This document shows positions 2,598 through 45,773 of a DNA stretch of 51,604 bases, piece after piece. The notes beneath the pieces were generated by a model that was given only the letters and a program-made list of their open reading frames with translations, was not told the origin of the DNA and did no database searches. Source of the stretch: a virus; IMG/VR virus record IMGVR_UViG_3300036861_000596, positions 1-51,604 of that record; one strand, given 5' to 3'. Each line of letters begins with the position of its first letter. Positions within the stretch are counted from its first letter, which is position 1. The position numbers were made by a program, and so were the translations under genes.

Positions 2598-2729
2598 CTA
2601 CCGTGTCACCTGCCATCCGTGCTGGCGGCACCAGTGGACGTGGAGGGTTTTGGTCAAACGGAGGCTAAACCCCCAACTCGGGGCCCACCGCAGGTAGGAC
2701 TCACCGGCTCCGATGTAGTTACGGGGCAT
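2598..2729 (-). CDS. Small protein, unknown function
   Basis: 43 residues, MPRNYIGAG... ending HGWQVTR, from an ATG that overlaps the end of the glycosyltransferase gene (2719). It fills the gap between the last sugar-cassette gene and the first fibre gene with overlap on one side and no spacing on the other, the pattern of a coupled real gene. It has a basic, aromatic composition with HVHW and no recognised motif. Confidence 0.5.
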   Translation of the reverse strand: MPRNYIGAGESYLRWAPSWGFSLRLTKTLHVHWCRQHGWQVTR

Positions 2730-3402
2730 AGTCGGGGAGAGGGGCGCGCCAGAAGTCGGGCGGCTCGTTGGGGTCACCACCATGTTTCCAGTGGTAGCGC
2801 AGCCGATTCGCCATGAAGAGCAGGTCCTTTCGAGCGGCCCACGGGCAGGCCGTTACGACCTGGCGGGAGCCCGTGCGCGTCACGTTGGCCGCGGGGACAC
2901 TCACGAGCTGCACGCCGCTGAGGAGGGCCCGCTTGAAGAAGTCGGTGTCCTCGTACCAGGCCGGCACGAACGTCTCGTCGAAGGGGCCGACTTGCTCGGC
3001 CACCGACCGCGAGACGGCCCAGCACCACCCGCTGATCCCGAGCCCGTAGGGCTTGCTCCCGCCGGTGAGGGGGAAGGCGATGTGGCCCATGAGGGCAGCG
3101 TCGTAGAGGGGGCGGTCCCAGCCCGGCTCGACATGCGTCGTGGTGGTGACGAAGGCGAACACGTCGCCGTGGGCGAGCCGGCGCCCCTCGTTCCAAGCGG
3201 GAGCGATGCCACGGTTGGTGGGCCAGAGCGTCGCGGCGCTCGTCCGCAGGGGTCGGCGGTGAGGCGAGCCGTTATCGACGACGATGACTTCGAGGGGGAC
3301 CTCGGCGGTGTCCCAGATACGCTCGATATTGGCGTGGGCCATCTGTGCCAGTTCGGGAGTAACGTTCCAAACCGGGACAATCACGCTCAGCATCTTCGGC
3401 AC
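2719..3402 (-). CDS. GT-A fold (family 2-like) glycosyltransferase, metal motif altered
   Basis: 227 residues from GTG at 3402 (an in-frame ATG lies at 3393). The N-terminus MLSVIVPVWN and the VIVVDNGSPH strand (Asp43) are the nucleotide-sugar-binding start of family 2 glycosyltransferases. NRGIAPAWNEGRRLAHGD matches the next conserved block, and WYEDTDFFKR (about 145-154) matches the catalytic ED region. Where these enzymes normally carry the DxD metal-binding motif this protein reads FVTTTTHVEPGW (TTTT at 86-89). It may therefore be metal-independent, altered in activity or inactive. Last gene of the sugar cassette. Confidence 0.8.
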   Translation of the reverse strand: MPKMLSVIVPVWNVTPELAQMAHANIERIWDTAEVPLEVIVVDNGSPHRRPLRTSAATLWPTNRGIAPAWNEGRRLAHGDVFAFVTTTTHVEPGWDRPLYDAALMGHIAFPLTGGSKPYGLGISGWCWAVSRSVAEQVGPFDETFVPAWYEDTDFFKRALLSGVQLVSVPAANVTRTGSRQVVTACPWAARKDLLFMANRLRYHWKHGGDPNEPPDFWRAPLPDYAP

Positions 3403-3506
3403 TCCGGTCGGGGGCAGACCGTCCCCACCCAGTGGAGATGGTCGTCGGCCACCCCGGGCGGGCGGGCAGCGACGATTCCGCGCGGCTCGACGACTTGCGA
3501 CTTCAT
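3387..3506 (-). CDS. Possible 39-residue coupled small protein
   Basis: An ATG at 3506 overlaps the stop of the mutase-like gene (ATGA), and the frame continues 39 codons to a TGA inside the start of the next glycosyltransferase. It ends HWVGTVCPRPECRRC, with three cysteines. It accounts for the otherwise empty 100 bp between two tightly packed genes. It could equally be a leader segment only, and no homologue is known to me. Confidence 0.35.
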   Translation of the reverse strand: MKSQVVEPRGIVAARPPGVADDHLHWVGTVCPRPECRRC

Positions 3507-4420
3507 AGAAACAACTCCGCCCACACGTGCATCGCCCGCTTCAACGTGCGCCAATAGCCGCTATCCGGCAGGACGAGCTTGTCGGCCAGCTCGTAGTAGC
3601 ACCGGGCCACGCTATCCTGCGTCAGGCGCACCTCGTCCACCCGCTCCCACAGCCACTCATTCGCCGCCTTCGGCTCGCGCTCCTTGATGAGGTTGATGTG
3701 GGGGTCGCTGGCCCGCTCGTGGCGTACCCACGGGCTCCCGCTGCGAACGGCGAAGCCGAGGTGATCGCACACCTTCTTCGACATGACCCCGGCCCATATA
3801 TCGCCGAAGCGGTCGTAGCCCCACGGCACGTCGTAGAGGAGGTGCGTGCCCATGAGCATGAAGTACATGGCCGGCACCATCTCCCGGCGGAAGGCGAGGT
3901 TCATGCCGCTCATCGGGTAGTAGCTTCCCGCCCCGATCCATCCCCTGATTCCTTCGTACTGGTAGGGCGGCGGGCTGGCGAGTTGCGTCTCAGCGTCTAG
4001 ATCGGGGATATGCGACCAGAGCCCGTGGTTGATGTGGGTTGGTCGGAGGCCCCGGTTCTCTGGCATGCCACGCGGCTTGATCGTGACGGTGGGCTTCCAA
4101 CGAGGCTCATCCGTCTCTAACCACTCGACGTGGTGCTTGAGCCAACGCCCGTCGGGATAGCAATCGTCGTCAATGGTGAGGATGTAGTCGGCCCCATCCC
4201 GCCACGCACGCCAGAACCCGTAGCTGCGAATACAGTCCGTCTGGCGGGGGATGATCCAGGCAGAATTCTTACCCAGCGCGTGGGTGATTTCTAACCACGT
4301 CTCCGGCTCGTCCAGCACCTCGTACACGCGCACGTCGAGGCGGTCGAACTCGGCCTTCCACTCTCGTCGCCACCGTTCGAGGCTGTCGGGGCGGTTGCTG
4401 GGACAGACGACGGCGATCAT
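3503..4420 (-). CDS. RGP/GT75 family protein, UDP-arabinopyranose mutase-like
   Basis: 305 residues from ATG 4420 (ATGA overlap with the upstream methyltransferase). Several blocks match the plant reversibly glycosylated polypeptide / UDP-arabinopyranose mutase family as I remember it: TDCIRSYGFWRA, the metal motif TIDDDCYPD, NHGLWSHIPDLDAETQL, YPMSGMNLAFRREM, PAMYFMLMG and DIWAGVMSKKVCDHLGFAV, followed by HERASDPHINLIKE. Characterised family members interconvert UDP-arabinopyranose and UDP-arabinofuranose. Here it would supply an activated sugar for the neighbouring transferases, or act as a transferase itself; substrate is not shown by sequence. Family-level call is strong, reaction is inferred. 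Confidence 0.8.
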   Translation of the reverse strand: MIAVVCPSNRPDSLERWRREWKAEFDRLDVRVYEVLDEPETWLEITHALGKNSAWIIPRQTDCIRSYGFWRAWRDGADYILTIDDDCYPDGRWLKHHVEWLETDEPRWKPTVTIKPRGMPENRGLRPTHINHGLWSHIPDLDAETQLASPPPYQYEGIRGWIGAGSYYPMSGMNLAFRREMVPAMYFMLMGTHLLYDVPWGYDRFGDIWAGVMSKKVCDHLGFAVRSGSPWVRHERASDPHINLIKEREPKAANEWLWERVDEVRLTQDSVARCYYELADKLVLPDSGYWRTLKRAMHVWAELFL

Positions 4421-5016
4421 CTCGTCGGCACCTTCACCGCCTCGACCCGCACCGTCGGGATCTGGGCGGCATGGTAGTCCTTCCCCGGCCCCGTCACGTA
4501 TCGCAAGAACCCCCCAAGCATGACGAGCAGGCCGAGGGAGTCGGCGGTATAGCCGTAGTAGTGCCCATCGATGAGGGGGTTGTCGTAGCCCCCGTAGATC
4601 CCCCCCACCATGATCCCGACGTTCCCCGCGAGCCACTCCTGGCACATGCGCCGCATGTCGGGGGTCTCGGCGATGAATAGGCCGTTGGGGCGCAGGACCC
4701 GGTGGGCCTCTCGGGCGATGTGGAGCGCGGCGACGGGCGGGACGTGTTCGAGCGCCTCGAACATCGTCACCTTGTCGTAGGTGGCATCCCCGAGGGGCCA
4801 GGGCTCGCGGAAGTCGAAGGCGAGGTCCTGGGCAAAGACCGGCTGCACATCGACGTTGGTGGCGCCCGGGATCGGGTTGACCCCCGAGCCAAGGTTGAGG
4901 TGGTCGGGACCGTCGTAGCCGATCCACTTGAGGCGGGGATCCATGCTCGTATCGACGGGCCAGCGGGCCCGCATCGCTTGACCGGCGGCGTAGTAGAGCG
5001 GCGGGTACTCGCTCAC
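4417..5016 (-). CDS. SAM-dependent class I methyltransferase
   Basis: 199 residues. HLNLGSGVNPIPGATNVDV (residues about 39-57) is the glycine-rich SAM-binding motif I with its acidic strand 2 partner. FREPWPLGDATYDKVTMFEALEHV gives motif IV, and AHRVLRPNGLFIAETPD is the typical post-motif strand. This is the pattern of type-11/23 methyltransferases that act on sugars or small molecules. It overlaps both neighbours by four bases in the sugar cassette, so methylation of a glycan or nucleotide sugar is the natural inference. Confidence 0.8.
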   Translation of the reverse strand: MSEYPPLYYAAGQAMRARWPVDTSMDPRLKWIGYDGPDHLNLGSGVNPIPGATNVDVQPVFAQDLAFDFREPWPLGDATYDKVTMFEALEHVPPVAALHIAREAHRVLRPNGLFIAETPDMRRMCQEWLAGNVGIMVGGIYGGYDNPLIDGHYYGYTADSLGLLVMLGGFLRYVTGPGKDYHAAQIPTVRVEAVKVPTR

Positions 5017-5954
5017 AGAAGCGCCCCCATCGCCGCCTTCAGGGCGGCCCGTTCCCCCTCCAGCGGCAGTACCTCCTGCACCCCCCGGCTCATCACCCGC
5101 CCCTCCTCAGCGATCTCGACGACGGGACGGCGGAGGAGCCGCTGCGCCTGGGCGGTGAAGTCGGTCGTGTCGCTCGACAGCACCACGTCCATCCCGCACC
5201 GCCGCATGAGCATGTCGCTGCTGTGCCCGCCGTAGCCGAGCACGTAGCACCCGCAGGCCCCCGCCTCGAACGGGGGGAGTGTCCCGCCCTCGGGATAGCC
5301 GAAGGCGAAGAACACCAGGGACTCTTGCAGAATACGGCTCGTCTCCGCCTCGGACTGCCCGTCGATGGCGACCACGTCCCACCCGTCGAGAGCCCCGCTA
5401 AACCGCAACCACCCGAACACCTGCTGCGCCTCGTCGGGGTGCTTCCGGGGCATCCACGCGATCTGCCGACGCTTGGCCGTGCCGAGCGGGAAGGTGAGGG
5501 GGTCGATCCCGTGGGGGACGACGTGGACGGGGTGGTCGGGGAATACCGCCCGCAGCGCATCCCGACAATAGTCGGTCAGCACCATCGTCCCCACGACGCG
5601 CGGGTCCCGGTAGGGGGTGGCGCAGTCAGGCGGGGGTGGGACTGAGTAGCCCCGGAATGTGTAGTGCGAGTTCTGGTTGAAGACGATGGTCCGCACGCCG
5701 GGCGGGGCAATCTCGGCCGTGTTCGGGCCCATGATCTCGTTGGTGACCAGCACGTCCCCAGCGCGGAGCGCGACGCCGTCCAGGTACGCGACGGGGTAGT
5801 CGTGGCTGATCCAGGGGTACCGAAACCCGGGCGTGACGTGGAGCAGCCGAGCCGACCAGCCCATCTCGTCGAGCAGGCGGACGTGGCGGACGTGGGTCTT
5901 GGTGCCCCCGGAGGGCGGGCGGTGGTCCGCCGCACTGGGCAGGTAGTAGATCAT
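5013..5954 (-). CDS. GT-B fold (family 4-like) glycosyltransferase
   Basis: 313 residues. The start MIYYLPSAADHRPPSGGTKTHVRHVRLLDEMGW matches the N-terminal Rossmann half, with the glycine loop and a helix typical of family 4. VLTDYCRDAL and HVVPHGIDP mark the inter-domain region. AIDGQSEAETSRILQESLVFFAFGYPEGGTLPPFEAGACGC corresponds to the nucleotide-sugar-binding half, with the conserved EG...PPFEA (EX7E-like) motif. Donor and acceptor are unknown. Overlaps both neighbours by ATGA. Confidence 0.8.
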   Translation of the reverse strand: MIYYLPSAADHRPPSGGTKTHVRHVRLLDEMGWSARLLHVTPGFRYPWISHDYPVAYLDGVALRAGDVLVTNEIMGPNTAEIAPPGVRTIVFNQNSHYTFRGYSVPPPPDCATPYRDPRVVGTMVLTDYCRDALRAVFPDHPVHVVPHGIDPLTFPLGTAKRRQIAWMPRKHPDEAQQVFGWLRFSGALDGWDVVAIDGQSEAETSRILQESLVFFAFGYPEGGTLPPFEAGACGCYVLGYGGHSSDMLMRRCGMDVVLSSDTTDFTAQAQRLLRRPVVEIAEEGRVMSRGVQEVLPLEGERAALKAAMGALL

Positions 5955-7048
5955 CGCGCAGTCTCCACGCGGCCCTCATAACCGGCCGCCCTCACCTTCT
6001 CCGTTATCTCGTCCTCGAAGTTCCACGGCAACACCAACAGCTTCTCAACCGGCTCGTCGAGGAGGGTCTGGAGCGGGACGACCGGCACGTTGTAGGGGGT
6101 GATGAGACCCTGCTTGGCCGGGGTCTCATCCACGACGTATCGTAGGTAGGACGGCCCCAGTCCCACGACGGTGCAGAACACCGTCCCCTTCGCCGCCGCA
6201 CCGAACGCGCCCCAGGTATGGCGCTCGGTGTACGTGTCCCACCACCGTCGAATGCGCTCGTCGAGACGGGTGTGGAAGCGCTCGTACGGGGCCGGGGTGA
6301 GCAGTTGCGTCTCGGACGGGTCGTCCTCGGCGCTTGCCCGGGCCTTCATCGCCACGACCCGCACCGACCCCCCGTGGATCGGCAAGTACTCCAGGTTGAT
6401 GATGTGAAGGTCGTGCGCCGCGAGCAGGCGGCGCAGGCTCGTGATCGTCCAGTACGAGAGGTGCTCGTGGTAGATGGTGTCGAAGGCGATCCCCGTCAAC
6501 AGGTCGAGCAGGTACGGCACCTCGACCACGAACACCCCGTCCGGGGCGAGCAGGCGCGCCACCTCCCCGACGAAGGCATGCACCTCATCGACGTGGCCGA
6601 GCACGTTGAGGGCGGTGATGGCGTGGAAGGGGCCGACGAGGCCGAAGGCGGGGAAGGTGCCGCGCCACACGTCCTCATGCTGGGGGCTGGGGTCAATCCC
6701 GACCACGTCCCACCCGGCCGCCTCGGCGGCGACGAGGAGCGTGCCGTCGTTGGCCCCGATATCGAGCCACTTCCCCGGGTGTAGATACCCCCCAACCACC
6801 TCCACGAGGCGCTTGCAGTGGGCCCGGAAGGTGGTGCTCACCCCGCTCCGGTACGGATAGCCCGTGTAGAGCGTGGTAGGCGAGAGCACCGTCGTGAGCT
6901 GGCTCAGCCCACAGGCAGGGCAGCGGGCCACGACGAGGGGATAGGTATCGGGGTAGGGCGCGCTGGGCTTGCGGAGGGCGTTGGCGAGGGGTTGCTTGCC
7001 GAGGTCGAGCCACTCGATCGTCGGGGTCGCGCAGACCCGACACGTCAC
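5951..7048 (-). CDS. Zinc-binding sugar C-methyltransferase-like protein
   Basis: 365 residues from GTG 7048, which overlaps the stop of the upstream gene (GTGA). The frame stays open to 7228 but that would overlap the transferase gene. The N-terminal CRVC and later CPAC cysteine pairs with LANALRKP form the zinc-binding domain of the NovU/TylC3-type sugar C-methyltransferase family. LDIGANDGTLL and VVGIDPS form the SAM site. NVLGHVDEVHAFVGEVARLLAPDGVFVVEVPYLLDLL and IYHEHLSYWT follow, with a C-terminal second Rossmann-like domain (AFGAAAKG). Known members methylate carbon 3 of NDP-deoxysugars; the substrate here is unknown. Confidence 0.85.
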   Translation of the reverse strand: MTCRVCATPTIEWLDLGKQPLANALRKPSAPYPDTYPLVVARCPACGLSQLTTVLSPTTLYTGYPYRSGVSTTFRAHCKRLVEVVGGYLHPGKWLDIGANDGTLLVAAEAAGWDVVGIDPSPQHEDVWRGTFPAFGLVGPFHAITALNVLGHVDEVHAFVGEVARLLAPDGVFVVEVPYLLDLLTGIAFDTIYHEHLSYWTITSLRRLLAAHDLHIINLEYLPIHGGSVRVVAMKARASAEDDPSETQLLTPAPYERFHTRLDERIRRWWDTYTERHTWGAFGAAAKGTVFCTVVGLGPSYLRYVVDETPAKQGLITPYNVPVVPLQTLLDEPVEKLLVLPWNFEDEITEKVRAAGYEGRVETAR

Positions 7049-8040
7049 GACGAGACCCCCAACAGGGCCGTCGTGGTCTCCTGCTGGCCCGGTCCCCTGA
7101 GCCAGTCGAGATACCCCAAGAACGTCCCGTCGCTGTGGGCCTGCGGGAGGATGCGCCGCCAGTACACAACCCCCGCCGCCGTCAACGCTGGCACCCAGCT
7201 CTCCCCGACGGGGGGACGCTGGAAGCACGGACTATCGCCCGGGAGCACGTAGTTGCGGTTGAGCTGGGTATCGAAGTGGCTCAATAGAAGGCCGGTATCG
7301 GCGTAGATGACGCCCCCGGCCTCGTCCCGCATCCGCATCATGAAGAAGCGGTCATGCCCCCAGCGGTTGCGGGTCTTCCCGCCCACGTCGTCGGGGGTGC
7401 TATCCTTGAGCACATCGTCAAACCACGGCCCCTTCAGCTTCCGCACATAGGCCATGTTGACGAGCATGCAGCCCGCCCCGGCGCTATGGATGGGGATGAG
7501 CGCCCCGAGCGGCCAGTCCCAGAAGGCCCCGGCCTCCGCGTCGAGGTAGAGAAGGGGCTCAACGGGCTCGATCTTCGTCGAGTACACCCCCGTGATGACC
7601 GCCGCCTCGGGGTGTTTCCGCATCGCCCCCCACAGCCGATAGAGCGTCGTGTCGGGGAACAGCACGTCATCGTCGAGAAAGCAGACCGTCTCGATGTTCT
7701 CGGCGAGGGCCGTCTCCAGGATGGCGTTGCGGGCGGCGGCCGGGAGCTTGCCCTTCTGCACCGTGTACGACATGGCGGTGTTGAGCGGGTGGAGAAGCTG
7801 GAGCAGGCTGATGAAGAACTCGACGGGGGGGAAGCCCCGCGTCGGGATGCCGATGGTGATGGCGGGCGCGCCCGGGCTCACCTTGATCGGCTCCTTGGCC
7901 CGGTACATGACCGGGTCGGGACCGCGCTCCGTATCGAGACGCCCCAACAACCGGGCGAACAACTCCTCCCCGGTGATCTCGTCGGGGAGGGGGCCCAGGA
8001 ACTCCGTCAGCAGCTTCGTCTGTCTCAGATCCAAGTTCAC
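7045..8040 (-). CDS. GT-A fold glycosyltransferase
   Basis: 331 residues. ITIGIPTRGFPPVEF is the start of the GT-A domain, LPAAARNAILETALAENIETVCFLDDDVLFPDTTLYRL holds the DxD motif (LDDDV), and SAGAGCMLVNMAYVRKL plus WGHDRFFMMRMRD complete the acceptor side. This is the layout of phage- and bacterium-borne glycosyltransferases with intact metal site, unlike the one at 2719-3402. First gene of the sugar cassette, directly downstream of capsid-region genes and in the late unit, so it is likely made when virions assemble. Confidence 0.8.
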   Translation of the reverse strand: MNLDLRQTKLLTEFLGPLPDEITGEELFARLLGRLDTERGPDPVMYRAKEPIKVSPGAPAITIGIPTRGFPPVEFFISLLQLLHPLNTAMSYTVQKGKLPAAARNAILETALAENIETVCFLDDDVLFPDTTLYRLWGAMRKHPEAAVITGVYSTKIEPVEPLLYLDAEAGAFWDWPLGALIPIHSAGAGCMLVNMAYVRKLKGPWFDDVLKDSTPDDVGGKTRNRWGHDRFFMMRMRDEAGGVIYADTGLLLSHFDTQLNRNYVLPGDSPCFQRPPVGESWVPALTAAGVVYWRRILPQAHSDGTFLGYLDWLRGPGQQETTTALLGVSS

Positions 8041-8063
8041 TCAACATCTCCTATCGCGGCGGG

Positions 8064-8450
8064 CTATTCAGGTACTGGCGGCCACTTCGGCAGGTCGGTC
8101 GTCTCCGTGAGGGGCGGGCCCACGGGCCGATACCCCCTCGTGTCGGGCGGGGTTGTCTGCGTCTTTGAGCGCATGCGCTGGAGCCACTGGCGTTCCATCT
8201 CCGCCCGCTGGCGGGCTTGCTGAGCCTGCTGAAAGCGCTCGAACGGCACCACAACCCCACCCCGCCCCGGCAGCGCATTCCCCATGAAGCGGGCGAGGGC
8301 GCTCAGGATATCGATGAAACTCATCGGGTGGGCGGGCTGGAGGCCCTGCGCAGCCCCTTCCGCCGTCGGGTCCGGCGTGAAGAGACCAGCAGGGCTCCCG
8401 CTCGCCTGGAGCGCCCGCACGAGGTCCGGCTCAAGCTCGTACGGGTTCAT
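8064..8450 (-). CDS. Hypothetical protein in capsid region
   Basis: 128 residues. Residues about 70-92 (FQQAQQARQRAEMERQ...) form a short charged helix and the last 30 residues are Pro-rich and probably unstructured. No family recognised. Located between the beta-rich structural protein at 8454 and the sugar cassette, with three bases of spacing on one side. A virion-associated role is possible from position only. Confidence 0.6.
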   Translation of the reverse strand: MNPYELEPDLVRALQASGSPAGLFTPDPTAEGAAQGLQPAHPMSFIDILSALARFMGNALPGRGGVVVPFERFQQAQQARQRAEMERQWLQRMRSKTQTTPPDTRGYRPVGPPLTETTDLPKWPPVPE

Positions 8451-8453
8451 CGG

Positions 8454-8969
8454 CTACTGTTCGAGGTAGATGTAGGTGGTGAGGTCGTTGTTGGCAGGGG
8501 CGAGGTCGGCGGAGGTGATGATGACCGCGCCGATGCGATCCCCGGCGACGACGGTGTCAACGTCCTTGTTCTGGACGGTGACCCAGCTCCGAACGCTCGT
8601 CGCGGCGTTGACGTTCGTGAACACGGTCGAGCCGTTCTTGGTCACGCGGACGCTGACAGTCCCGGCGGTGATGTGCGTGGAGAGGCAACTGGCCACGCCG
8701 ATGATGGAGCCGCCCCGCAGGGTCGGGACGGTATCCTCCGCCCCGGAGATGGCGGCGAGGTCGTGGACGGTGCTCGCCATCGACGTAGTGAGGTTGAGGT
8801 TGACGAAGGGCCCTACCGCCATCAACAGGCCCCCGACGTTCTGCGTGACAACGTCGCCGTTATTCAACAGGCCGGTCCCGACCGTCTGGGAGTCTCCCGA
8901 AGTGGCAAACTCCAGGAGGGTGCTCGACCCAACGAGCTTGAGGGGTGCGGACATGGTCTTACGAGCCAT
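8454..8969 (-). CDS. Beta-rich virion structural protein
   Basis: 171 residues. Alternating strands rich in Thr/Ser/Val/Asn, with TVSVRVTKNGSTVFTNVN and AGDRIGAVIITSADLAPANNDLTTYIYLEQ, characteristic of phage decoration or appendage beta-sandwich proteins. AAG-GACA lies before the ATG and the gene is preceded by a large hairpin that separates it from the major capsid gene. It could be a head fibre or tail appendage; I cannot tell which. Confidence 0.65.
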   Translation of the reverse strand: MARKTMSAPLKLVGSSTLLEFATSGDSQTVGTGLLNNGDVVTQNVGGLLMAVGPFVNLNLTTSMASTVHDLAAISGAEDTVPTLRGGSIIGVASCLSTHITAGTVSVRVTKNGSTVFTNVNAATSVRSWVTVQNKDVDTVVAGDRIGAVIITSADLAPANNDLTTYIYLEQ

Positions 8970-9105: not shown

Positions 9106-10026
9106 CTAGGCTCCTGGCGAGCCCCACACCTGCCGCCAATCGACGCAGCCCCTCGACCAGCGGGCCCGCACAACCGACAGCATCGTGGTGTTCTTGATAT
9201 CAAAGTCGCTCGACGAGGTGAAGGGCAGGCGGTCGTAGGCCCGCAGTCCCATGTCGTTCACGTCCGAGGGCTTCGCCACGAACCAATACGCGTCCGTGTC
9301 GGTGATCTCGGACCAGAAGACCGGCGTGAGCCCCTCATTCTCCTCGTTGAGGATGTTCTTCTCGTTATCGGTCGTGTAGGGCTTGTCCGGGGACTTGAAC
9401 ACCTCCCCGTACACCCACCGCATCGCGGGGTTGGCCACGAAGTAGGCCGGCTGGGCCCCGATGCGGATGCCCTGGTCGTCGGTCAGGTTGGCGAAGTGGT
9501 TGAACACGGTCTGCGCCGCGCTGATCCCCAGGTCGGCCGCCCCCAGGTTGGAGATGGTGGAGCCGTTGTAGAGGGTGTGCGTGGCACAGATATCCGACCC
9601 GTCGGCCGCATCCTCGGTCCCGAACGAGTTGTTGAAGACGTTGCTGAAGTTGACTTCCTTGGTGAAGCGGTGCGACTTCGCAGCCGCCTTGGCGAGGCTG
9701 GCGACCAGCTCATCCTGGTCGTCGTCCTCCATCTCCTCCGTCACCTGCCACGCCACGCCGAACTTGGTGTGCGTGAACTTCTTGTCGAAGAGCTGCGCGA
9801 CCGAGGCGAGCGGGTAGTCCTCACCCTCCCCAACGACGGAGAAGGTCGGGAACCCGGTGAACCCGGTCACGTTCTCGAACTGACGCTTGCTCTTCTTCCA
9901 GCCGAAGAGCTTCTTCCAGGCGCTCTTCTTCTCGTCCAGGTCGCGCGACTGGATATAGACGGCGTCGATGAACGCCAGCCGACTCGTGAAAATGTCAGGG
10001 TAGTTGTTGCGAACCATCATGGGCAT
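9106..10026 (-). CDS. Major capsid protein
   Basis: 306 residues. The N-terminal MVRNNYPDIFTSRLAFID and the segment SKRQFENVTGFTGFPTFSVVGEGEDYPLAS are followed by FTHTKFGVAWQVTEEMEDDDQ. This matches the E-loop and long helix of HK97-fold capsids of the Mu F/T-like class; ANPAMRWVYGEVFKS and the late SSSDFDIKNTTMLSVVRARW match the P and A domains. Size fits a capsid protein made without a cleaved delta domain because a separate scaffold-like gene lies upstream. Order portal-scaffold-decoration-capsid supports it. Confidence 0.88.
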   Translation of the reverse strand: MPMMVRNNYPDIFTSRLAFIDAVYIQSRDLDEKKSAWKKLFGWKKSKRQFENVTGFTGFPTFSVVGEGEDYPLASVAQLFDKKFTHTKFGVAWQVTEEMEDDDQDELVASLAKAAAKSHRFTKEVNFSNVFNNSFGTEDAADGSDICATHTLYNGSTISNLGAADLGISAAQTVFNHFANLTDDQGIRIGAQPAYFVANPAMRWVYGEVFKSPDKPYTTDNEKNILNEENEGLTPVFWSEITDTDAYWFVAKPSDVNDMGLRAYDRLPFTSSSDFDIKNTTMLSVVRARWSRGCVDWRQVWGSPGA

Positions 10027-10039
10027 CTACATATCCCCC

Positions 10040-10525
10040 TTACACACCGACCCGGCTCTTGCCGGCCAGCCAGTGCTCGCTGATCTTGACGATGAGGGGG
10101 ATGTTCTTCCCGAAGGCCACGTCCGGGTCCTTCCCGATGATGCGGAGCTGGGCGGTCGCGGTCGTGGCGGTGGAGATATCCAGCTCGTGCTGAGACTTCA
10201 GGAACGTTGCATTCCCGGTGGTGGCGAGAATATCGGCGTTGGTGCCGATGGTGGTCTGGGCAGGGGTCCCGGCGGCCCCGTCGTCCTGGATGTAGTACTG
10301 CTGGTCAGGATGGTCGGAGACGAGGACGGTGTTGTAGGTCGCGCTCTTATATGAGAGCGCCATCCCGACGAGGAAGGTGTTGCCGGCGGTGGCGATGGCG
10401 GCTTTGCCATCGACCCGCATGAGAACGGCATCACCCGGATAGATAGCGGCGCTGGTACCGGCGTTGTACTCCTTCATGTGAAGGATGCGCCCCGCCGGCC
10501 AGAACCCGCGAGGGTTGTCAGCCAT
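10040..10525 (-). CDS. Head decoration protein
   Basis: 161 residues. The sequence is beta-rich with the GDAVLMR...GNTFLVGMALS pattern and IPLIVKISEHWLAGK end seen in small head proteins coded directly before the capsid gene in many phages. It starts two bases downstream of the neighbouring stop and is followed 13 bases later by the capsid gene. A decoration or capsid-stabilising role is inferred from position and fold-like composition. Confidence 0.65.
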   Translation of the reverse strand: MADNPRGFWPAGRILHMKEYNAGTSAAIYPGDAVLMRVDGKAAIATAGNTFLVGMALSYKSATYNTVLVSDHPDQQYYIQDDGAAGTPAQTTIGTNADILATTGNATFLKSQHELDISTATTATAQLRIIGKDPDVAFGKNIPLIVKISEHWLAGKSRVGV

Positions 10526-17035: not shown

Positions 17036-17112
17036 TGGCTGCCGAGGCTGGCCTCGAACCAGCGACCCCCTCGTTAACAGCGAGGTGCTCTACCGGGCTG
17101 AGCTACTCGGCA
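17036..17112 (-). tRNA. tRNA-Asn (GTT)
   Basis: 77 nt on the minus strand with encoded CCA. Acceptor TGCCGAG pairs perfectly with CTCGGCA, D stem GCTC/GAGC, anticodon stem CCTCG/CGAGG with loop CTGTTAA (anticodon GTT), five-base variable loop GGGTC, T stem GCTGG/CCAGC with TTCGAGG loop, discriminator G. All stems pair without mismatch, so it looks functional. It lies just upstream of the small terminase gene in the same direction and would be at the 5' end of the late transcript. Confidence 0.96.
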
Positions 17113-19814: not shown

Positions 19815-20588
19815 ATGAGTCCACTTACCGACTACCAGTACCGGCGATTCGTCGCCCGGTTCAACGAGTACCAGGCGGGCCACCCGTCGCCACTACTGGT
19901 CGAGCAGCTCCGGGAGTGGCTCGCCACTCTCCCGGTGAGCGCTCAGGCACATGCCCGGGCCGCGCTTAAGCGGGCCCTCGGGCGCCTCGTCGAGTGGGAC
20001 GACGTGGGCGTCGCTCGCTATCGTCGGAATCGCGCCACCCTCCAGGCCAGCATCTTGAGCACCCGTGAGCAGGACACTCTCCTCGCCAGTCTCCAGACGA
20101 GCCGGGAGCGGGCGGCCGCACATTGCCTGTTCACGCTACGCCGGGTGGAGGTGGCGCGGATGGCGTGGTCGGATATCGATTGGGCTGAGCGGGTCGCCTA
20201 CATCCCCCGGGGCAAGCAAGACAAGCCGCGGTGGACCCTGTTGTCGGCGGGGGCCGTCGAAGCGCTCGCCATGCTCTACGCCGAGGAGGCGCGCCCCACA
20301 TCGGGGCCGGTGTTCCGGTCGTTGCGGGGCGGCCACCTGCGGCCGAACAGCCTGGGGACGTGGTTCGACGGGCTGGTCCGGCGGGCGGGGCTCAAGCGCC
20401 CCGGCCGTAACTGCCACGCCCTCCGCCGGACGATGGCGACGAGCTACCTCCGGGCCAACCCCGGCGATCTAGACGGCTTGCGGGAGGTGATGGGGCACGA
20501 ATCCATCGCCACGACGGTTCTGTACAACTACCCCCAGCCGGCCGATCTAGCCCCGCGGCTCGCCCGCGCCCTCTCGCACTGCCGATAA
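19815..20588 (+). CDS. int: Tyrosine recombinase/integrase
   Basis: 257 residues. An N-terminal helical core-binding domain (about 1-80) is followed by the catalytic domain. Conserved residues visible: Arg109/110 in FTLRRVEVARMAWSDID, Lys134 in the beta hairpin RGKQDK, His201-x-x-Arg204 in HALRRTMATSYL, His228 in MGHESIATT, and the nucleophile Tyr at 237 or 239 in LYNYPQP. Shorter than lambda-type integrases because it lacks an arm-binding domain. It implies site-specific integration; no attP core could be identified by eye. Coded behind the ribbon-helix-helix gene. Confidence 0.9.
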   Translation: MSPLTDYQYRRFVARFNEYQAGHPSPLLVEQLREWLATLPVSAQAHARAALKRALGRLVEWDDVGVARYRRNRATLQASILSTREQDTLLASLQTSRERAAAHCLFTLRRVEVARMAWSDIDWAERVAYIPRGKQDKPRWTLLSAGAVEALAMLYAEEARPTSGPVFRSLRGGHLRPNSLGTWFDGLVRRAGLKRPGRNCHALRRTMATSYLRANPGDLDGLREVMGHESIATTVLYNYPQPADLAPRLARALSHCR

Positions 20589-45179: not shown

Positions 45180-45773
45180 CTAACCTCGCAGGTGTGCTTT
45201 CTGGGTGTTCATGGCGCTGTGGGCGCCGAGCTGGGCGAGCTGGGTCTGGACCCGCTCGCCCTTCTGCCGTAGATAGTCGGTGTCCTTGAAGGTGGTGAGG
45301 GGGTAGGGGCGGGGGAGGCGCGTGACGAGGTCGTCGAGGGGGGCGCCGAAGTAGAGGTGGACGGGGAGGCCCGGCACCTCCAGGGAGCCGAGCGGCGGGC
45401 CGAAGTGCTGGGTACACATCGCAACGGCGGCGTCCTGGTCGGCGGGGATGGCCACGTAGAGCCGCTGCCACCCCATCACCTGGAGATCCCGCGCCTGACA
45501 GGCCCGCAGCTTGCTCGCCACGCCTTGTCGGCGGTGGGTTGGGAGCACGGCGAGGCCGAAGTCGTCGGCCACCCCCTCCGGCATGAGCCCGACCGCGGCG
45601 TACCCGACGACCTGCCCCTCCACGACCGCCTTGTGGACGTGGTACACGGGCCAGTGCAGCAGCTCGAAAAGGCCCCCGTCGAGCAGGAAGGGGTTGTATC
45701 GGCGGAGCGCCTGCACCGCCGCCCGATCAGCCCAGCTCGCCATATATACCCGACTAAGCATCCGACTAAGCAT
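45180..45773 (-). CDS. GNAT-family N-acetyltransferase
   Basis: 197 residues from ATG 45773. FGLAVLPTHRRQGVASKLRAC (about 93-113) is the acetyl-CoA motif A (Q/R-x-x-G-x-G/A), preceded by VVGYAAVGLMPEG and followed by MGWQRLYVAIPADQDAAVAMC, the usual GNAT order. A 12-nt tandem duplication (GATGCTTAGTCG twice) encodes the repeated MLSRMLSR start and creates two possible ATGs (45773, 45761). Target unknown; it could acetylate a virion or host component. Confidence 0.8.
   Translation of the reverse strand: MLSRMLSRVYMASWADRAAVQALRRYNPFLLDGGLFELLHWPVYHVHKAVVEGQVVGYAAVGLMPEGVADDFGLAVLPTHRRQGVASKLRACQARDLQVMGWQRLYVAIPADQDAAVAMCTQHFGPPLGSLEVPGLPVHLYFGAPLDDLVTRLPRPYPLTTFKDTDYLRQKGERVQTQLAQLGAHSAMNTQKAHLRG

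Follow-up and report, generated by a model that had tools for sequence, protein, structure and literature searches.

Glycosylation of capsid or tail proteins by phage-encoded glycosyltransferases is known (Freeman 2023, as cited in PMC12363180 and PMC11256854), and the mycobacteriophages Che8, Corndog and Myrna are named there as encoding glycosyltransferases that are expected to act on such proteins. The GT75 (RGP) mutase class has so far been characterised from plants and two antibiotic-producing bacteria only (PMC9937993), and one account of soil phages lists GT75 and GT2 among their auxiliary genes, with a role in components of the cell membrane (PMC12016548). Here, we analysed the 51,604-nt sequence IMGVR_UViG_3300036861_000596 of an uncultured bacterial virus in full (the window). 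Like the mycobacteriophages, it encodes glycosyltransferases expected to act on capsid or tail proteins, but its set, which follows the capsid gene directly, adds a predicted GT75 mutase and a predicted sugar C-methyltransferase. The portal and adaptor of this phage are of SU10 type, as identified by family searches. The comparison with actinobacteriophages drawn in the initial annotation holds as an analogy, but no link between the window phage and actinobacteria was found. We consider it probable that the cassette serves to glycosylate the virion itself on a putative acceptor, the sugar being furanosyl and possibly also C-methylated.

The record carries an exact 127-base repeat at its ends, which indicates a circular genome map of ~51.5 kb, so that the minus-strand virion block continues across the record ends. 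The genome encodes a family A DNA polymerase and a tyrosine recombinase (19815-20588); a tRNA-Asn gene lies near the latter (17036-17112), and integration is possible. The six genes had been placed between capsid and fibre genes. All six open reading frames proved to be real: each is on the minus strand and has the codon usage of a coding sequence, and the set is flanked by the major capsid gene on one side and tail/fibre genes on the other, as matched by family searches. Pfam and PDB matches also bore out the enzyme identities proposed initially. Two relatives are used for comparison below, one represented by loci L002 and L086 and the other, G001, by loci L006 and L024; gene calls on loci were made with a custom codon-usage script in place of a standard gene finder. 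In transcribed order, the region comprises:

9106..10026, minus strand: major capsid protein (PF25209, Phage_capsid_4, E 1.7e-12; homologues 59-68%), candidate acceptor
8454..8969, minus strand: 171-aa Ser/Thr-rich protein behind the capsid gene (L002 homologue 34%), candidate acceptor
8064..8450, minus strand: 128-aa protein between the capsid region and the cassette, no confident family match
8040-7045, minus strand: first cassette gene, predicted GT2/GT-A-like protein, 331 aa (PF00535 E 1e-6; FLDDDVLFPD motif)
7048-5951, minus strand: predicted sugar C-methyltransferase, 365 aa (GTG start; PF08421, PF13489, PF08484)
5954-5013, minus strand: GT-B (GT4-like) glycosyltransferase, 313 aa (three-sequence profile against PDB 8xsg)
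5016-4417, minus strand: small class I SAM methyltransferase, 199 aa (PF13489 E 5e-7, PF08241 E 1e-6)
4420-3503, minus strand: GT75/RGP NDP-pyranose mutase homologue, 305 aa (PF03214 E 3.6e-29)
3387..3506, minus strand: 39-aa putative coding ORF, overlapping both neighbours (C-terminal CPRPECRRC in translation)
3393-2719, minus strand: last cassette gene, predicted GT2/GT-A glycosyltransferase, 224 aa (PF00535 E 1e-7)

The first five cassette genes are linked by four 4-base overlaps, and the sixth is preceded by the 39-aa ORF. No terminator-like sites were found on the minus strand between positions 1 and 18000; as the whole scan gave no more sites than shuffled sequence, this absence is weak evidence. 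The GC content of the cassette (0.675) resembles that of the rest of the genome (0.661), and third-position GC matches as well, leaving no mark of recent acquisition. Candidate acceptors are the capsid protein, a 161-aa protein (10040-10525) and the 171-aa protein, the last of which has no counterpart in the G001 relative (L006). Short cysteine-rich ORFs also occur at two cassette gene junctions of L002 (8782-8968 and 9892-10000; e.g. MTSLVCSPCGMCCYRYDDHICQPKC...), which differ from the 39-aa ORF of the window and show no clear homology to it. Elsewhere in the late block of the window lies a GNAT acetyltransferase gene (45180-45743), with a homologue at 44% identity in L006.

The GT75 protein scored 102.5 bits against PF03214 (cut-off 23.8 bits), and a profile built from three phage GT75 proteins matched the MtdL structures with E 4e-36. 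We mapped onto it the residues named for MtdL in PMC9937993. The Mn2+ site is kept (DDD as D84-D86, His287 as H234), R117 corresponds to the glycosylated Arg159, and D140, R204 and D207 correspond to Asp195, Arg257 and Asp260; D62 was also mapped. Among these, R117, D140 and D207 are unchanged in all 74 homologues that were aligned. The MtdL residues are essential, and the inactive AtRGP5 lacks the equivalents of R257 and H287 (PMC9937993), both of which the window protein retains. With MtdL, Hyg20 and the plant UAM/RGP mutases (PMC9937993; PDB 7xpr, 8cid), it has in common the DDD motif, the glycosylated Arg, the Mn-binding His, the phosphate-binding Arg and the catalytic Asp, whereas the Ser228-Gln229 pair of MtdL is Gly-Met in the window protein. 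It further differs from these enzymes in being phage-encoded and in adjoining glycosyltransferases in a virion block. Judged by these residues, the window protein is predicted with high confidence to be an active NDP-pyranose mutase.

In C-methyltransferases of the NovU/TylC3/TcaB9 type, the residues of a Tyr-x-Glu-His segment are catalytic. The product of 5951-7048 has DTIYHEHLSY aligned to DQIYDEH of TcaB9 in this segment. It contains the zinc-binding, SAM and C-terminal domains (Methyltransf_13, 23 and 14; E 5e-14 to 5e-22) and aligns end-to-end with mycarose 3-C-methyltransferase (PDB 4rv9, E 1.6e-51) and TcaB9 (E 3e-43). An earlier start at 7228 would give a longer ORF overlapping the upstream gene and was set aside in favour of 7048. 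The full three-domain architecture and the DTIYHEH motif are common to the phage enzyme and NovU, TylC3 and TcaB9 (PDB 3ndi, 4rv9), but no dehydratase or aminotransferase partner was recognised among the annotated phage genes. Along with the GT75 protein, its prediction as a sugar C-methyltransferase of this type is the strongest assignment in the cassette, and for the initially reported combination of a mutase homologue with such an enzyme both catalytic residues and domain architecture are kept. The small methyltransferase (4417-5016) is the variable member: it has no homologue in L002, where a Methyltransf_24 protein (7600-8103, E 1e-5) replaces it.

The GT-B protein fell below the Pfam cut-off (E 0.0076), and a profile of its three phage homologues, which among the viral contigs occur in the window, L002 and L024 only, matched AmGGT (PDB 8xsg) with E 3.4e-20. 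Its distant homology to the Actinobacillus Agt/AmGGT GT4 glucosyltransferases spans most of the protein, but similarity is low; Agt homologues of AmGGT extend peptide-linked glucose (PMC12159676). The first GT2-like protein (7045-8040) matched PF00535 above cut-off, and its DDD is invariant across three homologues. With only three close viral relatives, it was found in this phage lineage alone. It had no PDB match by sequence, and fibrillarin matches (E 0.02-0.6) were rejected as chance. Structure prediction, which the initial annotation had proposed as a check, gave no usable model here: AlphaFold2 reached pLDDT 52 from three sequences, and 42 from two sequences for the 171-aa protein, values too poor for fold searches. 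The last GT2 (2719-3393) is present in all three lineage members (51% identity to L002, 36% to L006). Both GT2 assignments are predictions of moderate strength.

A search for the same cassette in other phages, also suggested initially, recovered all but one of the six genes at the corresponding place in the L002/L086 relative, whose capsid and portal proteins are 59% and 53% identical to those of the window. The genes lie behind the capsid gene in changed order, at 48-53% identity (C-methyltransferase 50%). Their recurrence in so diverged a relative indicates that the cassette is inherited rather than a chance arrangement, and their identities, close to those of portal and capsid, that it has been kept about as strongly as the virion genes. 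The L002 cassette is trailed by a hexapeptide acyltransferase-type gene. In G001 (capsid identity 57%), both GT2 genes follow the capsid gene (L006), the homologue of 7045-8040 directly, and in three of three lineage members they are located behind it; GT-B and GT75 are instead encoded between uracil-DNA-glycosylase and DNA polymerase (L024); the C-methyltransferase was not found in this relative. L024 also encodes, between GT-B and GT75, a 276-aa protein (9165-9992) without a Pfam match that by eye resembles a glycoside-hydrolase barrel. As the GT75 proteins of all three phages group in a single clade (support 0.97), the location near DNA polymerase in G001 points to a shift of position within the lineage and weakens the argument from position. 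These comparisons show a cassette passed on within the lineage, though its location is not fixed. The initial placement in a late transcription unit stands only in part: it agrees with the operon-like packing with virion genes, but not with the GT-B and GT75 genes beside DNA polymerase in G001.

Against 50,697 phage records, the nucleotide search gave no match and the protein search a single GT75 match, in a 595-kb uncultured phage; the first GT2-like protein had no match in this protein search. A GT75 profile retrieved 70 IMG/VR loci and 11 loci in bacterial genome bins. Direct GT75 neighbours were rich in GT2, NAD-sugar epimerase/dehydratase, Methyltransf_24 and GT1 proteins. Outside the window lineage, one group (L009, L014, L031) has GT75 between the portal and head protease genes, and in others it lies at most ten genes from a major head protein, with glycosyltransferases in between in the L013 group. 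Enrichment near head genes was nevertheless rejected, as GT75 and a head gene are no more than ten genes apart in 21 of 61 contigs (L002 included), about as many as random placement in a genome of 50-70 genes might yield. Further phages have GT75 in nucleotide-metabolism blocks, where dCMP deaminase and DNA polymerase III-like genes and sometimes a thymidylate synthase-superfamily gene accompany it. Among large uncultured phages, GT75 occurs near dCMP deaminase in L034 (4552-5529, 9986-11074), L022 (8170-9129), L015, L035, L037 and L042, which share a 370-aa protein and mostly a DNA polymerase III-like gene; L022, L034 and L042 additionally have a thymidylate synthase-superfamily gene. By analogy, loci of the L034/L022 type may serve DNA furanosylation, recalling the arabinosylation of Mosigvirus DNA.

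For the window itself, sugars on phage DNA would mean a hypermodified base bearing an arabinofuranose-like sugar. Mosigvirus, with its arabinosylated cytosine, provides a precedent in which the source of the arabinose donor is unknown (PMC13390438, PMC6024577); phage glycosyltransferase and sugar-nucleotide genes, possibly for a pentose, are common to both systems. The GT-B and GT75 genes of G001 adjoin those for uracil-DNA-glycosylase and DNA polymerase, and the other phages described above have GT75 close to genes for dCMP deaminase and thymidylate synthase-superfamily proteins. However, the window, G001 and G002 contain no thymidylate-synthase-superfamily (PF00303) or C5 DNA methylase gene in searches with positive controls, in line with the earlier statement that no hydroxymethylase-type gene is seen. 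Unlike Mosigvirus, the window thus has no detected base-hydroxylating enzyme of this superfamily, and two of the three relatives have the cassette within their virion block. A search for TET/JBP-type hydroxylases gave no match, and no positive control gave a signal either. DNA modification is unlikely here, and we assign it a low probability.

Modification of a host surface glycan, in receptor masking or lysogenic conversion and with no virion target, is a rather unlikely reading. It draws on the tyrosine-recombinase gene, which suggests possible lysogeny, on the O-antigen-like character of the GT-B, GT2 and methyltransferase genes, and on the GT-B and GT75 genes outside the virion block in G001. 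Two of the three relatives nonetheless carry the cassette amid late virion genes, and it includes neither a recognised membrane glycosyltransferase, flippase or polymerase nor clear membrane segments. The enzymes might also be auxiliary, altering host polysaccharide or metabolite synthesis with no dedicated phage acceptor, as GT75 and GT2 of soil phages have been described (PMC12016548). We regard this as improbable: glycosyltransferases, C-methyltransferase and mutase have stayed together behind the capsid gene through ~50% divergence, which a phage product fits better. Glycosylation of the virion is favoured over modification of DNA or envelope by the packing with virion genes, the fixed place of the GT2 genes behind the capsid gene, and the lack of clear membrane segments and of thymidylate-synthase-type and C5-methylase genes. 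Counted in its favour are the one-strand packing with capsid and tail genes, conservation comparable to that of virion genes, the retained GT75 residues, the kinship of GT-B with AmGGT, the known phage glycosyltransferases that act on capsid or tail proteins, and the occurrence of GT75 with glycosyltransferases among head genes in other lineages; counted against it are the G001 arrangement, a proximity to head genes not clearly above chance, and the moderate strength of the GT2 assignments.

Starting from the observed gene content, catalytic residues, conservation and packing, we infer substrates, reaction order, enzyme-sugar pairing and a virion acceptor for glycosylation of the particle, which would take place during late gene expression. 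GT75 would convert a host NDP-pyranose into its furanose form via a glycosyl-arginine at R117; known substrates of the family are UDP-L-arabinose, UDP-galactose, GDP-L-fucose and GDP-L-galactose. A possible task of the C-methyltransferase is to branch an NDP-4-keto-6-deoxysugar of the host, e.g. a rhamnose-pathway intermediate, the keto-sugar having to come from the host since no dehydratase was recognised in the phage. The two GT2 enzymes would then attach and extend the sugar on a structural protein, with GT-B adding a further residue, perhaps the furanose, and the small methyltransferase would cap the glycan. That the particle carries a glycan both furanosyl and C-methyl-branched, with the furanose donor supplied by the phage GT75 mutase, is a more tentative proposal. 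We know of no such sugar form on phage proteins. The enzyme set with its mutase had been called new, and in the literature searched, which includes few subscription journals, no virion-gene cassette that pairs a GT75 mutase with a C-methyltransferase is described; GT75 as such had already been mentioned in soil phages.

If correct, phages would make rare coat sugars with a mutase class known from plants and two antibiotic-producing bacteria, and the cassette would be echoed by other GT75-plus-glycosyltransferase clusters of environmental phages. A role in coat building would then fall to some of the phage GT75 genes at present counted among auxiliary genes of the carbon cycle, and coat chemistry, with its effect on adsorption, defence and antibody recognition, would be testable through a defined gene set.
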